Part shown: positions 2,135 to 11,500 of the stretch, piece after piece | How the letters are laid out: each line of letters begins with the position of its first letter | Numbering within the stretch: position 1 is the first letter of the stretch | Assembly (NCBI GenBank): GCA_022568195.1 | Contig: JADFFS010000015.1 | Location: 1-38,171, forward strand | Length of the DNA stretch: 38,171 bases | Direction of reading: 5' to 3' | From: Chloroflexota bacterium | GTDB taxonomy: Bacteria; Chloroflexota; Dehalococcoidia; Lucifugimonadales; UBA3495 | The notes under the pieces: model-generated | Databases searched by the model: none | The model's input: the letters and a program-made list of their open reading frames with translations, nothing else | What the model was told of the DNA's origin: nothing | Position numbers and translations under genes: made by a program

Positions 2135-2474
2135 AGGCCGAAGCTGCCCTTGACACGCTATTAAGTCCCTGCAAAAGAAGCACGCCTCCTTCCGCCACTG
2201 GTTCTACCACGTGCTCCAAGGCGGCGAGCTAGGGGATTTCCAGTCCGCACTACCCAAGCCCTTCCGTTTCATGGGACCGGAGAGCGCCCGGATATGGCTG
2301 CCGGCGTCGGGCCGAGTGTCCAGGGAGCAGGCAGGGCACCAGCGGCCCTGCCACGTCCGCCACAACCTGCTACGAAACGGCTCGTACAGCTGCCGGCCGG
2401 AGTGCTATACTATGCCGGGCCGCCAAAGGCCGCCAAGTTAACTAGGTTCTCGCCGACCGCTGGGAGTAGGGTTA

Positions 2475-3575
2475 ATGGTAGTAGCCGCGGACGCAGTCCA
2501 GATGGACCCCCAAGCCCTGGACCGGGTGGAGGATCTGTTTCGAGAGCAGATTGCCAGGGGGTCACACCCCGGGGCTGTTCTGGCCGTGTACCGCCACGGT
2601 CAGCCGGTTCTGGACCTTCATGGAGGGATGGCCGACGCGGAAGCGGGCAAAACCGTAGCCAGCGACACCATGTTTGTGCTGTACTCTTCGACCAAGCCCT
2701 TGGCCGCTGCCTGCGTGCACATTCTGTGGGAGCGAGGCAAGCTGGACTGGGATGACCCGGTGGCAAAACACTGGCCCGGTTTTGCCAAGAACGGCAAAGA
2801 AGCCGTGACCTTGAGGCACGTTTTGACCCATCGGGGCGGATTCCCGGAGACCCCGCCCAAGCTTACCTGGGACAAGTGGCAGGACTGGGATGCGGTGGTG
2901 CAGGCGATGGAAGACATCAAGCCGGAGTATCCCGCGGGAGCCGTGTTTGCCTACCACCCCCGGAACTTTGGATGGGTTTTGGCCGAACTGGTACGGCGGG
3001 TCGACGGCCGTCCCTTCCGGGATTTCCTCCAAGAGGAGGTCACCGGTCCGCTGGGCATGCACGACACCTTCGTTGGACTGCCGCCGTCTCTGGAGGACCG
3101 GGTGTCCAAGCAACACGCCATGGAAGACTGCGACCGGCCTTCCCAGGTTTCCATGTACAACCGGCCCGAAGTCCATCAAGCGGTGCAACCGGCCGGTGGC
3201 GGCATAGCCACCGCCAGAGACCTGGCCCGGTTCTACGCAATGATGGAGCGAGGGGGCACGCTGGACGGGATCCGGGTGTTGGCCCCGGAAACGGTGGCCG
3301 AGGTTACCCAACTTCAGGTCGAAGGCCTGGATTTGACCAACGAGCGCCACTCCCGCCGCAGTCTAGGGCTGTCCCTGGGCGACCCTCGCATGGGCTCGTC
3401 GGGCACCGATGACATTCGCACCTTCGGGCACGGGGGCGCGGGGACTTCGGTGGGCTGGGCCGACCCGGATTCGGGCCTGGCGATGGCCTACATCACCAAC
3501 GGCTTCCGGGACGACTCGACCAACTACCCTCGACTGGCGGCCATGTCCCAGGCCGTCCGGGACGCCTGCCGCTGA
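2475..3575 (+). CDS. serine hydrolase, beta-lactamase/esterase (class C-like) family
   Basis: SxxK motif (LYSSTKPLAAA), GHGGAGTS near the C-terminus, overall beta-lactamase PF00144-like sequence. Confidence 0.88.
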   Translation: MVVAADAVQMDPQALDRVEDLFREQIARGSHPGAVLAVYRHGQPVLDLHGGMADAEAGKTVASDTMFVLYSSTKPLAAACVHILWERGKLDWDDPVAKHWPGFAKNGKEAVTLRHVLTHRGGFPETPPKLTWDKWQDWDAVVQAMEDIKPEYPAGAVFAYHPRNFGWVLAELVRRVDGRPFRDFLQEEVTGPLGMHDTFVGLPPSLEDRVSKQHAMEDCDRPSQVSMYNRPEVHQAVQPAGGGIATARDLARFYAMMERGGTLDGIRVLAPETVAEVTQLQVEGLDLTNERHSRRSLGLSLGDPRMGSSGTDDIRTFGHGGAGTSVGWADPDSGLAMAYITNGFRDDSTNYPRLAAMSQAVRDACR

Positions 3576-3643
3576 GCGGCTGGCGTGCCCAAGGGTGGGT
3601 GTGGCCCGGTTTTTGCCACGCGCCCGATTAAAATCTGTTGGGG

Positions 3644-4060
3644 TTATGGCGCTGCGGAAAGACCCGCGGCTTCGATCCCGGCTCGTGCCGAGTCCTCGTC
3701 CTGCTGAGCAGTGCCCCCGCTGCCTCCGACGGCGCCTACCAACTCCCCTCCCTTAAACACCGGCAAGGCGCCTTGCCCCGGAATCATGTGACCGCCCTCC
3801 ATGGCCATCAGACCGCGGAAGACCGGCGACATGGCGTTGTCGGTTAGATCGCCGCTGGGACGCCCAAAGCACGCCGCCGACACTGCCTTGGCCCGGGATA
3901 TGGCCGGAGTACGCCAGGAAGCGCCGTCGGTGCGGAACATGCCGATCAAGTCGCCCCTGGGGTCAACCACCGACACGCTCATCTTGGCCCCCATTTCAAA
4001 AACCTTGGCCTTGGCTGCCGCTAGAATCTGCTCGGACTCGGCCAGAGTCAAAGATGCCAT
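3644..4060 (-). CDS. GlcG/HbpS family heme-binding-like protein (DUF336)
   Basis: 138 aa; LTLAESEQILAAAKAKVFEMGAKMSVSVVDPRGDLIGMFRTDGA... and FKGGELVGAVGGSGGT are characteristic. Confidence 0.88.
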   Translation of the reverse strand: MASLTLAESEQILAAAKAKVFEMGAKMSVSVVDPRGDLIGMFRTDGASWRTPAISRAKAVSAACFGRPSGDLTDNAMSPVFRGLMAMEGGHMIPGQGALPVFKGGELVGAVGGSGGTAQQDEDSARAGIEAAGLSAAP

Positions 4061-5372: not shown

Positions 5373-6932
5373 TCATTTATGAATCAGGGTTGCTACTAAA
5401 TCAGCAGTTTCCGGATCCGGAGCGATCCCAACCAAAGTACGGTCCTGGTCCAGCACCAGGACTACCGACCGGCCCTCGGCGTCCCACCGGACCGAATTGC
5501 CAACGGCGTCTTTGGCCGCCCAGGTAGCTGTGGAGTCGGTAAACCCCTCATATACGTCGAAGAATTCCTGGGCGTCGTTGCCGGTGTCCCACTGATGGAG
5601 CATGACGAAGATCCGTCCGCCGGCGGAGTCTCGAAGCAAGCGAAATTGGTCACCGCCCCAACCACTGGCAGCCCGGGCGGCCGCGGGTTTGGCGACACCG
5701 GACTCCAAATAGGTGCGCAGTATGAACTCGCCCATGACGTCTTCCAGCAACAGTTCCCAGTCACCTGTCAGTAGAGGCAGCACAGGCGGCAGGGCAACTT
5801 TCTTGGGCGCTTCGCCAGCCAGATACCTGGCGGGATGCAGGATTTGCTCGGTGGACACCGGCGGCCGGCCGTAGGCCTCATTGACCGGACGCCAGACGCC
5901 GCGGCCCTGCCGCAGGGCAGTCACGAATCCCAGGCCGGCTTCATAAGGAAACAGCAGGGTCTTCTGAATCACGGGAGGGGCCTTGTCGTATACCGGCGTT
6001 GCCCCCGAGGCCCCTTCGGCTCCCAGCGCCAATATCTCCATCAGGTCCAGGTTGGTGGTGATGTAAACGACCGAGGACAGGGTCGCATCGCCCTCCAGCA
6101 AGGCCAGCATGGCCAGGGCACGGTCCTGGTTGACTTCCGACGCCTCCACCAGCGTACGGGCATCGAACCTTTGCTGCTGCAAGGCGTGGGTCAACTCGTG
6201 GGCCAGGGTTATTTTGCTCAGTGCATCCAAGGGAAGGGCCCCGGCAACCACCAGCAGGTCTTCGGTATCCAGGTCGAAGAGCCCGGCAACCTGTTCCCCC
6301 AGCAAGTCCAGGTACAACGGATACAGCTCGACGGACGGTCTCAGCAATCCCAACAGCCAGTAGAGCTCCTGTGTTTTGGCCAGTTCCTCCTGCTCTTCGG
6401 ATTTGATGGCTGAGCGAATATACGCGGCCATCTCTCCCCGGGTTACAAGCTGGGGCTTGACGGTGTCCCGGAAGCTCAGCCCCCGGCTGACCGCCAGAGA
6501 GTCCGAGACTACTTGGACTGCTCGGGCCAGCCTGGGGTCCGATGCCCGAGAACGGCCTGCCGGCTCACTTGGCCGCGTTGGCGCTACGCTGGGCTTAGGG
6601 ACGGTCGCGGATGTGGCTACCGGTGGGGCGGTGGCCGCCGCGATGTTCGCCGAACCAGGCGTGGGCCTGCGGACAGGTGTAAGCGTTAATGGGGATGCAG
6701 GGAGCGGCGTCAACCTGATAGCTGAGGTTGGCCGGGGGGCTATCGTTAGGGCGGGGATGGTATTTAGCGGCGGAGTCACTGTGGGCAATGCTGTCGGCGT
6801 GACAATCACGGCGGAAGTGGGCGTTGTCACCGGCGGAGGTTCGGTGGGCGCCGGTTGGGCGGAGCAGCCGGCCCAAACAAGCAGCAATGTCGTAAGCAGA
6901 GCCACCGCCGGTCTTACCACGGAGATTCCCAT
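5373..6932 (-). CDS. lipoprotein with gluzincin-like metallopeptidase motif and Pro/Thr-rich linker
   Basis: Lipobox-like LLLVWAGCS, TP-rich linker, HELTHALQQQRFD (HExxH) followed by EGDATL. Confidence 0.72.
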   Translation of the reverse strand: MGISVVRPAVALLTTLLLVWAGCSAQPAPTEPPPVTTPTSAVIVTPTALPTVTPPLNTIPALTIAPRPTSAIRLTPLPASPLTLTPVRRPTPGSANIAAATAPPVATSATVPKPSVAPTRPSEPAGRSRASDPRLARAVQVVSDSLAVSRGLSFRDTVKPQLVTRGEMAAYIRSAIKSEEQEELAKTQELYWLLGLLRPSVELYPLYLDLLGEQVAGLFDLDTEDLLVVAGALPLDALSKITLAHELTHALQQQRFDARTLVEASEVNQDRALAMLALLEGDATLSSVVYITTNLDLMEILALGAEGASGATPVYDKAPPVIQKTLLFPYEAGLGFVTALRQGRGVWRPVNEAYGRPPVSTEQILHPARYLAGEAPKKVALPPVLPLLTGDWELLLEDVMGEFILRTYLESGVAKPAAARAASGWGGDQFRLLRDSAGGRIFVMLHQWDTGNDAQEFFDVYEGFTDSTATWAAKDAVGNSVRWDAEGRSVVLVLDQDRTLVGIAPDPETADLVATLIHK

Positions 6933-7469: not shown

Positions 7470-8174
7470 CTAGCGGGGGAAACTCAGGCCTGGAGAGATG
7501 ACGGCTTTGCTCTCGAGGGTGAAGCTCCCTGCCGACGCCTCGGTGACGATGTCCAACAGAGACGTTGCGTTGTAGGCGTAGACGCTTTCCAGGGTCAGGG
7601 AAATCCTCTCCACACCGTTGCCCACCACATTGAAAGAGACCACCGCCACCGGCCCGTTGCCACTGATGCCGTTGGTGTCAATCACTGCAGTCCATAGACG
7701 TCCTGCGGTCCGGCTGCCCGAGTCAATCAACGCGGTGCGGGCCAGGGCGCCCTTTTCAACACTCACCACTTCCAGCACAGACGGCTCGTAAACCAGGACA
7801 AACTCCAGGCTGCCAACATTGGTGGCGCCGGTTAGGTAAACGGGAACCTCGATTCTGGGCGCCGCCATGGGGGTTGGCGGGGGGAGTGGAGTGGCCGTGG
7901 GTCCTTCCGGGGAAGGATGGGCCGTGGGCGTAGGAAACGGTGTGCTAGTGGGGACCCGCGTAGGAGAAGGCTCGGGAGTTGGCTCGGGTGTCGGCGCCGG
8001 GGTGGGCGCCACCGCTGGCCCCGGGGCAGCCAATGGTTCGGCCGGGCTACCAGAGAAGGCGCCTCCAATCCACAACCCGGCAACCACGACCCCCGCTACC
8101 ACGGGCAAAGCTACCAGCAACCACTTCTTACCGGCATTCAGCGCCATCAACGTCAAGCCAAACCACATTCTCAT
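7470..8174 (-). CDS. membrane-anchored cohesin-domain protein
   Basis: N-terminal TM (KKWLLVALPVVAGVVVAGLWIG), (TP/EP)n linker, C-terminal cohesin-like domain (IEVPVYLTGATNVGSLEFVLVYEPSVLEVVSVEKG...). Confidence 0.75.
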   Translation of the reverse strand: MRMWFGLTLMALNAGKKWLLVALPVVAGVVVAGLWIGGAFSGSPAEPLAAPGPAVAPTPAPTPEPTPEPSPTRVPTSTPFPTPTAHPSPEGPTATPLPPPTPMAAPRIEVPVYLTGATNVGSLEFVLVYEPSVLEVVSVEKGALARTALIDSGSRTAGRLWTAVIDTNGISGNGPVAVVSFNVVGNGVERISLTLESVYAYNATSLLDIVTEASAGSFTLESKAVISPGLSFPR

Positions 8175-8184
8175 GTTGGCCTAC

Positions 8185-8355
8185 CTATCCTCGCCTGGCC
8201 ATGGTCAGCAGTCGACGGGCATCGTCGGGAGTCACCCGTCCGTCTCCGTCCATGTCCATTACCAAGTCTTCTGTCTTCAACCCAACAAACATTTTGAGGG
8301 CGATCAAGGCGTCCACCGCAGTGATCCTCCCGTCCCCGTTGCCATCCCCGGTCAT
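8185..8355 (-). other. dockerin type I-like domain (two calcium-loop repeats)
   Basis: GDGNGDGRITAVDALIALKMFVG and MDMDGDGRVTPDDARRLLTMARRG. Confidence 0.8.
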
Positions 8356-11300
8356 CGGCTCTCCTACCGTCAATGTCCCATGAACAAGTTGGATAGACCT
8401 GGCCCTGTGAAGCGAGTCGGTGACCAAGCTTTCGGACAAGGTCAATGGAGTGGAGCTGCCCCGAGGTCCGATAATCTTGAACTCGATCCAAGCTGCAGAT
8501 CCATCGCCACTGGCGCTCTCGGAAGCGGCGGTGCCGAACCGTATCACCCCAGGGACCTCCGCGTTGTAGCTGAACAGCGCCGGGGAAACGCGGGAGCCCT
8601 GCATAACCTTGACCACCTCAACCACCGACGGATCGTAGTTGAGATTGAAACCCAGAGAGCTTACTTCTTGGGCTTTCTCCAAGCGAATTGGCAACAGGAC
8701 GGTGCCCCCGGGCCGCCCCATCCTGGACTCGGCCACCAGCAGGGCGCCGGTGGGCGCCGGCGTGGGCCGTGGTGTGTTGGTGGGCACCGGGGTGGGAGCC
8801 GGCGTCGGCTCAGGCAACTCGACCGGTGTAGCCACGGGCGCCGCTGGAGGGGGCAAATCACCGCGAATTAAAGTGACATTGTAGGTACCTACCGGGTCTC
8901 CCAACCGGGCGGACCCCGACACTACCACCACGTAGGTATCGGTGGTAGGTGCGGTCCACTGAAGACTTGTGCCAACGCCGTAATTGGACTCGGTAGTGCC
9001 CGTGCGGTAGTTGATCACGGTGATTCTGACGGCCTCGGCGGTGCCCAGCACTACCTGCAGAGTGTACTTGTCTCCCTGCTCGCCAGGAAATGCGAAGTAG
9101 TCGTAGTCGTCGGCCGGGCTGATGGCGCCGGCGATAGCGTTGCCGAATCCAAGCTGGGTTGCTCCGCCCGGCCCGCCTTTGTGCCTGTCCTCCAGAGACG
9201 TGTCGGCTTCGATCGTCAGCGAATAAGTCCCTGTGGGGTCCTCCAGCCTGGGGGATTTAGAGACTGCGATGTAGTAGAGCCCGTCGGAGGGAGCAATCCA
9301 AGATAGGTTGGTACCTTCGCCGTAGTTGCTGGCAACCGGCTCCAACGTAGGGTCGCTGTCCTCCAGCAGGATAGATACTGCTTCGGCTGAACCGTACTGG
9401 GGCGACACTGTATATCTCACGCCTCTCTTGGCCGGGAAGGAGAAATAGTCAACGTCCTCCGCCGGGCTGATGGCGCCGGTCACCTCGTTGCCAATGCCGA
9501 GCAAAGTGGCGTTGCCCGAGGTTTCGGCGTGGCGGTCTTCCATGGATGTATCCGCCACCACTTTGAGGGTGTAGGTACCCACGGTTTCTCTTAGTTGGGG
9601 AGGAGCCGACACTACGATGTAATAGGTCTGGTTGAAAGGGGCGATCCATTCCAGCTCGGTGGATATGCCGTCGCTGGACAGTTCGGTGCCCTGCACGGTC
9701 CGGTCCAATGAGAGACCGATGCGCTGGGCGGTTCCCAGTTCCGCCTGGACGCTGTACCTCACGCCGCGGCGGGCGGAAAAGGAGAAGTAATCCCGGTCAC
9801 CCACCGGGCTGATGGCGCCGGCGGCGGCGTTGCCGAAATCTATGGGCGTAGCACCGGCTCGTTGCTCGGCGTGCCGGTCCCTCAACGAAGTGTCGGTGCT
9901 GACTTTAAGGGTGTAGGTGCCGATGGAGCCGGCCGCTTGGGTGGGGGCGGAAACCACCACGTAGTAGGTGGCTTCTTCGAGCGCAATCCACTCGACCGTT
10001 GTGCCGAATCCGCCGTTGGAGACGTAGCTTCCCCCGTCCGGATTGTCCACAGCGATTTCGACATTACCGATAGTGCCCAACTCGGCCTCGATGATGTATT
10101 TGACCCCTCGTTGCGCTGGGAAAGCAAAGTAGTCCCGGTCATCTTCGGGGCTGACCGCGCCAGCCACGCCGCTGCCAAAGTTGATGGGCGTGGCCCCAAC
10201 CCGGTTTTCGCTGTGGCGGTCCTCCAGTGAGGTGTCCACGTCCACCTTGAGGCTGTAGGTCCCGACAACCCGTCTTACCTGGTTCGACGCGCTGATCGCG
10301 ACGTAGTAAGTGCCGCTGCTTGGAGCGATCCACCGCACGGTGGACCCAATTCCACCGTTGCTGGCTTCAACTACGTCGCCTGGGGAACGTATGGAGATGC
10401 CCACACCTTCAGCGGTGCCTGACTCGACCTGCACGGTGTATTTGTGGCCCCGCTTGGTCTGAAAGGAAAAATAATCTTCATCTTCGGCCGGACTTATCGC
10501 GCCTTTTTGAGCGTTGCCGAAGTTGATTGGCGTCGCTCCGGCACGGTTTTGAGAGTGTTTATCGATTAATGTGGTGTCCGCGACCACTCGGATGGCGTAG
10601 GTGCCTTCAGGGTCCCTTACCCTGGTGGTCCCGGAAATCACGGCGTAGTTGGTCCCGGTTCCGGGGGAGATCCATTCATGGGTGGTGCCTATACCGTCGT
10701 TGGAACTGACCGTTGATCCGGTGGCGTCGGCCACCGAGATGGTCAGGCCCTCGGCGCTACCCAACTCCACGTCTATGGTGTATTTGACACCGCGGTCGGC
10801 CAGGAAAGAGAAGTAGTCCTTGTCGTCGCCACCGTGGACGCTGCCGGAGTAGTAGGGCTGGTTGGACCAAGGGCTGACCGCCCCCTGATACTGGTTGCCA
10901 AGGGCGATGGGCGTGGCCCCATTGAATGTATCGCTGTGCCGGTCTTTCATATCGGTGTCCACGTCGACCCTGAGGGTGTAGGTTCCAAGGTAGACGGTAC
11001 CGGACAGGCGGTCCCAATCGGCGGACACTTCCACGAAATAGGTGTCGGTGGTGCGGGCGGTCCATTCGATCTTTTTCTGGTTTCCCTGCTGGTAGGTCAC
11101 CTGGCCCTCGGAGCTGCCGATCCCCCGGGCCACCGCATTGACCACCGTCAGGTTAGCTGATTCCACCGAGCCCATCTCCAGGCTAAACGTATAGCGTTCA
11201 CCCCGCTGGGCGCTAAAGGAGAAATAGTCCACGTCGAAGCCCGTGGGCGTCTGGTCAATCTCCCCCGTCATGTAACCGCGGGAAGAGTCGAAGGGAGTAG

Positions 11301-11427
11301 ACACGTTGCGGTAATCGCCGTGATCGTCGGCGGCCAGGACTGGATTTGGGGGGGCCACGATGCGGAAGCCGGCGGCCAAGGCAAGGACCACCAAGGCGGT
11401 AATCAGTAGCTTCGCCAGACTAGGCAT
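8185..11427 (-). CDS. secreted multidomain protein: signal peptide, 7 PPC-like repeats, Pro/Thr linker, cohesin, dockerin
   Basis: ORF 8185-11469; ATG at 11427 follows GGGAGGGGAGAGG and starts a signal peptide (MPSLAKLLITALVVLALAAG). Seven about 115-aa DYFSF...GTYTLKV.DTS units; cohesin; C-terminal DGNGDGRITAVD and DMDGDGRVTPDD dockerin loops. Confidence 0.85.
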   Translation of the reverse strand: MPSLAKLLITALVVLALAAGFRIVAPPNPVLAADDHGDYRNVSTPFDSSRGYMTGEIDQTPTGFDVDYFSFSAQRGERYTFSLEMGSVESANLTVVNAVARGIGSSEGQVTYQQGNQKKIEWTARTTDTYFVEVSADWDRLSGTVYLGTYTLRVDVDTDMKDRHSDTFNGATPIALGNQYQGAVSPWSNQPYYSGSVHGGDDKDYFSFLADRGVKYTIDVELGSAEGLTISVADATGSTVSSNDGIGTTHEWISPGTGTNYAVISGTTRVRDPEGTYAIRVVADTTLIDKHSQNRAGATPINFGNAQKGAISPAEDEDYFSFQTKRGHKYTVQVESGTAEGVGISIRSPGDVVEASNGGIGSTVRWIAPSSGTYYVAISASNQVRRVVGTYSLKVDVDTSLEDRHSENRVGATPINFGSGVAGAVSPEDDRDYFAFPAQRGVKYIIEAELGTIGNVEIAVDNPDGGSYVSNGGFGTTVEWIALEEATYYVVVSAPTQAAGSIGTYTLKVSTDTSLRDRHAEQRAGATPIDFGNAAAGAISPVGDRDYFSFSARRGVRYSVQAELGTAQRIGLSLDRTVQGTELSSDGISTELEWIAPFNQTYYIVVSAPPQLRETVGTYTLKVVADTSMEDRHAETSGNATLLGIGNEVTGAISPAEDVDYFSFPAKRGVRYTVSPQYGSAEAVSILLEDSDPTLEPVASNYGEGTNLSWIAPSDGLYYIAVSKSPRLEDPTGTYSLTIEADTSLEDRHKGGPGGATQLGFGNAIAGAISPADDYDYFAFPGEQGDKYTLQVVLGTAEAVRITVINYRTGTTESNYGVGTSLQWTAPTTDTYVVVVSGSARLGDPVGTYNVTLIRGDLPPPAAPVATPVELPEPTPAPTPVPTNTPRPTPAPTGALLVAESRMGRPGGTVLLPIRLEKAQEVSSLGFNLNYDPSVVEVVKVMQGSRVSPALFSYNAEVPGVIRFGTAASESASGDGSAAWIEFKIIGPRGSSTPLTLSESLVTDSLHRARSIQLVHGTLTVGEPMTGDGNGDGRITAVDALIALKMFVGLKTEDLVMDMDGDGRVTPDDARRLLTMARRG
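8865..11325 (-). repeat. seven tandem PPC-like protein repeats
   Basis: Seven copies of [ED]RHx..GATpi.fGn...GAiSP..D.DYFsF.a.rG..Yt...elGta..v.isv......vsn.giGt...WiaP...tYyv.vs......GtY.l.v.aDtsl. Confidence 0.8.
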
Positions 11428-11500
11428 CACCTCTCCCCTCCCACTACCCCAGAGCGTTGGCTTGCTCATCGCGATCCTATGACCGGATAGCGGGTCCGGC

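Follow-up and report, generated by a model that had tools for sequence, protein, structure and literature searches.

A probable cohesin-dockerin latch for surface display encoded by two adjacent genes of a Chloroflexota bacterium

Two adjacent genes of a Chloroflexota bacterium, here called A and B, probably constitute a dedicated surface-display latch for a single cargo, in which the secreted protein A is held on the membrane by docking of its dockerin into the cohesin of protein B. Both genes are transcribed from the minus strand of the analysed stretch of DNA (38,171 nt; GCA_022568195.1, contig JADFFS010000015.1, positions 1 to 38,171 of the forward strand), which is referred to below as the window. 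A combines a signal peptide and PPC repeats with a cohesin (CohA) and a C-terminal dockerin. B, located 10 bp downstream of A, combines a transmembrane helix with a single cohesin (CohB). An earlier note, made from the sequence alone, had described the two proteins as a membrane-anchored protein with a C-terminal cohesin lying 10 bp downstream of a secreted protein with a cohesin and a two-loop dockerin, which is right in detail. It had also interpreted them as a candidate scaffold system unrelated to cellulose, where the membrane cohesin captures the dockerin and the cohesin of A chains or recruits other proteins.

The domain assignments are well founded. CohB and CohA score 38.2 and 52.1 bits (E 1e-13 for the latter) with PF00963, the curated cut-off being 24.1 bits, and the dockerin of A reaches 24.6 bits with PF00404 (cut-off 22.9 bits) and is therefore a type I dockerin, so that the earlier assignment holds for all three modules. 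The family dockerin profile recognises the dockerin of A at E 1e-28, and both of its loops, including their acidic positions, are present in 13/13 relatives aligned to the window. By sequence, the best match in PDB for CohA as well as for CohB is 2XDH, a non-cellulosomal cohesin of Archaeoglobus fulgidus. An AlphaFold model of CohA with the dockerin has a fairly confident cohesin core (predicted local distance difference test, pLDDT, 70-85), and Foldseek places 2XDH first (E 2.5e-11), the remaining top 50 matches being cohesin entries as well; this check of the fold rests on the CohA model, CohB having been assessed by sequence. The dockerin part of the model is mostly below pLDDT 50, so the model is silent on docking in cis and on how the two modules pack. 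The structural match of CohA and the recurrence of the dockerin loops argue that these are neither chance matches nor generic immunoglobulin-like (Ig-like) and EF-hand folds.

The repeats of A, noted earlier as PPC-like, are indeed PPC repeats according to PF04151 (61.3 bits, above the curated cut-off); the repeat alignment gives seven of them in A and six to nine in its orthologues. For a modelled pair of repeats (AlphaFold, pLDDT 84) the best fold match is the tandem collagen-binding domain of ColG (5iku), with a poor overlay over the whole length (TM 0.36). The match points to a beta-sandwich module used for binding or as a stalk, and not to collagen. In the signal peptide of A, the A-x-A-like site is located ahead of a DDHGDY-like stretch conserved among orthologues. 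As hydropathy reveals no membrane segment in A other than the signal peptide, something else is needed to hold this protein at the cell. The anchor helix of B has neither a lipobox nor a cleavage motif and is considered uncleaved.

A and B are inherited together. Among 250 searched genomes of the order, with profile analysis added, 19 were found to carry the pair: 18 members of the family, including this one, and G145 from another family. Wherever the two genes share a contig, B lies downstream of A in the same orientation, mostly at a short distance (1-11 bp in 9 of the 11 first relatives); in G224 they are found on different contigs. Exactly two cohesins and one dockerin were detected by Pfam in 14 of the 17 relatives within the family, and the family profile recovered the module that Pfam had missed in G222, G223 and G224. 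The genes flanking the pair differ across most relatives. Scans of viral contigs with the alignments of A and B found no relative, and the matches of B in a scan of genome contigs were confined to its Pro-rich part.

The set of modules in the genome itself is closed as well. It has exactly two cohesins by Pfam, CohA and CohB, both at this locus, and two dockerins, one in A and the other on contig C203 (6267-6410), at the C-terminus of a glucose/sorbosone-dehydrogenase-like lipoprotein (L003, 1465-3120, minus strand). The composition of C203 is consistent with the rest of the genome. Its dockerin is of a different type and escapes the family dockerin profile, which leaves the dockerin of A as the sole one of its type. 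No convincing additional cohesin or dockerin was revealed in this genome by the family profiles, the weak extra matches to the cohesin profile falling on its Pro-rich linker portion. The dehydrogenase-like lipoprotein may be considered a possible second cargo.

In the C. thermocellum cohesin, the dockerin recognition motif is touched by Asn37 and Asp39 (PMC5772552). In CohB, each of the 17 family sequences with a letter at the equivalent positions has Ser and Glu there, while in CohA these residues vary (S, N, K or G and G, E or T). The linker between CohA and the dockerin, in turn, is 5 aa long in 16 of 17 genomes, as opposed to 16-53 aa between the PPC repeats and CohA. We read this fixed length as a sign of a rigid CohA-dockerin dyad presented to CohB.

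Taken together as a latch, the two proteins would operate as follows. A would be exported via the Sec route and lose its signal peptide, and no anchor would then remain in it. The dockerin at its C-terminus would fold with Ca2+ and dock into CohB, which is expected to stand above the membrane on the Pro-rich stalk of B, and this docking would keep the PPC rod (seven repeats here) at the cell surface, where it may contribute to adhesion or to a surface layer. CohA would recruit no partners and would most likely form a rigid dyad with the dockerin, as the X-module does in X-dockerin pairs. In the X-module-dockerin dyads known from type II cellulosome anchoring, an Ig-like module directly precedes the dockerin and is joined to it by a short linker; in A, unlike these dyads, the preceding module is a cohesin itself. 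Since each protein has one cohesin and the genome has a single dockerin of this type, we speak of a latch for one cargo rather than of a scaffold.

Several observations weigh against this reading or qualify the evidence for it. The genome is a draft (90% complete, 6.6% contamination) from which further dockerins may be missing, so their absence is no proof. In a phylum-wide sample of 301 genomes, dockerins are present in 31 of the 33 cohesin-bearing genomes versus 41 of 301 overall, but these are raw counts, uncorrected for the relatedness of genomes. Cohesin-like domains also occur in genomes of the same order where no dockerin was detected (for example G031, G246, G248, and G249), hence a cohesin match alone does not prove that a dockerin partner exists. 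The linkage of A and B is only partially independent of the flanks, as an HbpS-like gene stays near the pair in most family genomes. Finally, beyond the family CohB has a residue other than Glu at position 39: the two contact residues are Ser/His in G362, a genome from another order of the class, and Gly/Gln in G145. Dockerin residues 10-11 differ in the same two genomes too, and this parallel change is suggestive, resting on two cases.

Three other explanations were considered. If the pair were a scaffold, CohB would hold A while CohA would bind a dockerin in trans, either on a second A molecule or on a third protein, producing chains or recruited cargo. CohA is a genuine cohesin by Pfam, and a second dockerin is available on the C203 lipoprotein, the contig of which fits the genome in composition. 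In A. fulgidus, moreover, both cohesins reportedly bind the single dockerin. Nevertheless, we regard this arrangement as unlikely, because the family profile misses that dockerin and finds only one of the proper type, the contact positions of CohA are variable, CohA is tied to its own dockerin by the fixed short link, and no second Pfam dockerin was seen in the family relatives carrying the pair. The earlier scaffold interpretation is therefore retained in what it said of the membrane cohesin as a receptor and of a role apart from cellulose, and is not supported with respect to chaining and recruitment by the cis cohesin. Less likely still, A and B may be surface proteins that are co-expressed but do not bind each other, their cohesins being Ig-like domains of the adhesion type and the dockerin a cap stabilised by Ca2+. 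Such an explanation would accommodate the genomes where cohesin-like domains occur with no detected dockerin, as well as the abundance of dockerin matches (57 of 250 genomes of the order). It fits poorly with the strict A-B linkage in 19 genomes, the tight co-occurrence of cohesins and dockerins, the invariant contact positions of CohB and the fact that the closest structure is a cohesin known as a dockerin partner. The joint presence of A and B, the co-occurrence in the phylum and the A. fulgidus precedent argue instead for the membrane cohesin being the probable receptor of the dockerin.

A minimal or relict cellulosome devoted to polysaccharide breakdown appears highly improbable. Proteins that combine one cohesin with a dockerin are classified as monovalent adaptors, and anchored cohesin proteins as non-SLH anchoring scaffoldins (PMC11557425), and the modules of A and B match these two classes. 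According to Pfam, however, A and B are devoid of a multi-cohesin scaffoldin, a carbohydrate-binding module and a glycoside hydrolase, in line with the role unrelated to cellulose put forward earlier, and the one remaining Pfam dockerin in this genome belongs to a sugar dehydrogenase. With two cohesins in two proteins and no dockerin-tagged hydrolase found by Pfam in this genome, the cellulosome reading was rejected.

Coordinates of the features are collected in Table 1. Gene A can be read from position 11469 (1094 aa) or 11427 (1080 aa). The second start, also the one chosen in the earlier note, is more likely, as judged by the better, strong Shine-Dalgarno sequence GGGAGGGGAGAGGTGATG in front of it and by the normal signal peptide that it yields. 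A scan for promoters and terminators gave matches no more numerous than in shuffled sequence.

Table 1. Features of genes A and B in window coordinates (the slash in the signal peptide marks the predicted cleavage site).
Feature	Position	Strand	Basis
Gene A, secreted PPC-repeat protein with C-terminal cohesin and dockerin	8185..11469	-	Open reading frame, Pfam, orthologues
Signal peptide of A (MPSLAK...PVLA/ADDHGDY)	11332..11427	-	Hydrophobic N-terminus and A-x-A-like site
Seven tandem PPC repeats of A, ~114 aa each	8854..11331	-	PF04151, repeat alignment
Pro/Thr-rich linker between PPC repeats and CohA	8743..8853	-	16-53 aa, variable among orthologues
CohA, cis cohesin of A	8365..8742	-	PF00963, 2XDH match
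Two-loop dockerin of A (DGNGDGRITAVD / DMDGDGRVTPDD)	8188..8349	-	PF00404 and family dockerin profile
Gene B, membrane-anchored protein with one cohesin, 234 aa	7470..8174	-	Open reading frame, Pfam, orthologues
N-terminal transmembrane helix of B	8064..8120	-	Hydropathy in all orthologues, sequence
Pro-rich linker of B, variable length	7860..8063	-	Alignment
CohB, membrane-anchored cohesin of B	7518..7856	-	PF00963, 2XDH match, conservation

Two genes downstream of B deserve mention. The HbpS-like gene (PF03928; 3644-4060, minus strand), just downstream of B, has orthologues in loci L037, L038, L042, L045, L046, and L047 and persists near B in many relatives despite changes in other neighbours. 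Another gene downstream of B (5373-6932, minus strand) codes for a surface protein resembling the Hvo_1808 family and containing a metalloprotease-like HELTH motif; this gene order recurs in the two nearest relatives (L039 and L043).

The same design is encountered with different parts. G362 encodes a 390-aa protein in which other N-terminal domains precede the cohesin and dockerin, and its gene adjoins that of a 186-aa lipoprotein cohesin, bringing the total for this genome to two cohesins and one dockerin. G145 has an unrelated repeat in place of the PPC repeats, and in G047, G090, and G054 a different secreted cohesin-dockerin protein is paired with a small lipoprotein cohesin. In a tree including G362 and G145, a branch supported at 88/77 has every CohA sequence on the same side, and one supported at 94/71 every CohB sequence; this support is fair but below the tool's star. 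As this split extends across orders, CohA and CohB appear to be old paralogues inherited together. We tentatively suggest, with somewhat less than even confidence, that in this bacterial phylum the CohA-dockerin dyad and the anchored CohB serve as a general display cassette of two genes, which is cargo-agnostic and resembles sortase anchoring except in being non-covalent. Both the cargo (PPC rods, other beta-repeats or other small domains) and the anchor (membrane helix or lipoprotein) would be exchanged in the course of evolution, with the latch passed on unchanged.

Other arrangements of these modules were observed as well. The pair is absent from other genera of the family (L054, L055, L056, L061, L062, L063, L021, L024, L025, L027, and L029), where a single Pro-rich cohesin protein resembling a lipoprotein and a single secreted protein with a dockerin are encoded on separate contigs or far apart, apparently an unlinked 1:1 version of the system. 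At L095 (G199), a dockerin protein gene adjoins that of a lipoprotein (2225-3319 and 3261-3884) whose C-terminal domain resembles a cohesin and is too divergent for PF00963. L105 (G279, another order) is a cluster of three cohesin-like surface proteins, a phosphate-binding-like dockerin protein and a phosphate-transport-like permease. This dockerin protein may represent a transporter-binding protein tagged with a dockerin; such tagging has been reported for other transporters in anaerobic methanotrophic (ANME) archaea.

The closest known case is the non-cellulosomal ORF2375/ORF2376 pair of A. fulgidus, the source of 2XDH. ORF2375 also carries a cohesin, so that the pair totals two cohesins and one dockerin, and Voronov-Goldman in 2011 reportedly described two cohesins in that genome, both of which bind its single dockerin. 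Like A and B, the pair has one dockerin protein and one cohesin protein, here encoded by consecutively numbered ORFs. The dockerin is C-terminal in ORF2375 (432-506), the cohesin of ORF2376 is near the N-terminus (29-162), and their binding was reported to be strong and specific (PMC9705933). The locus studied here has the traits of an Archaeoglobus-type pair, namely adjacent genes, a cohesin-dockerin protein, an anchored cohesin protein and no cellulosomal enzymes, in a genome that also has the other-type dockerin on C203. Unlike our bacterium, A. fulgidus is an archaeon, and the identity is only ~30%.

The cellulosomal combination of a monovalent adaptor scaffoldin with a non-SLH anchoring scaffoldin, examples being Ruminococcus flavefaciens ScaC and the Coh1-Doc1 bi-domain protein of Acetivibrio, likewise consists of one protein with a single cohesin plus dockerin and a second in which a cohesin is joined to a surface anchor (PMC11557425). 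In contrast to cellulosomal scaffoldins, A and B have no enzymes, multi-cohesin scaffoldin, SLH domains, sortase signal or carbohydrate-binding module; the anchor is an N-terminal helix and the genome has one dockerin of the type. Non-cellulosic cohesin-dockerin surface systems were also described in ANME archaea and as the hypothetical 'planctosome' (PMC9012536, PMC6461901). The planctosome model shares the anchor and the dockerin-cohesin adaptor with A and B; however, ANME archaea have many copies and the planctosome carries peptidase cargo, whereas the pair described here is closed and its cargo consists of PPC repeats. This gene arrangement is already known from other non-cellulosomal pairs, of which the one presented here is a bacterial, lineage-wide variant.

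Cohesin and dockerin modules are frequent outside cellulosomes, but a role is known for few of them, and it is common for one genome to hold a large number of potential partners. The present system is closed in many genomes, with one dockerin of the type and two cohesins in two genes, and the assignment of partners can therefore be tested with three recombinant domains. The pair may also yield new orthogonal pairs for protein engineering. For the bacteria themselves, it is a candidate for a general route by which secreted proteins could be held at the surface without sortase or SLH domains.

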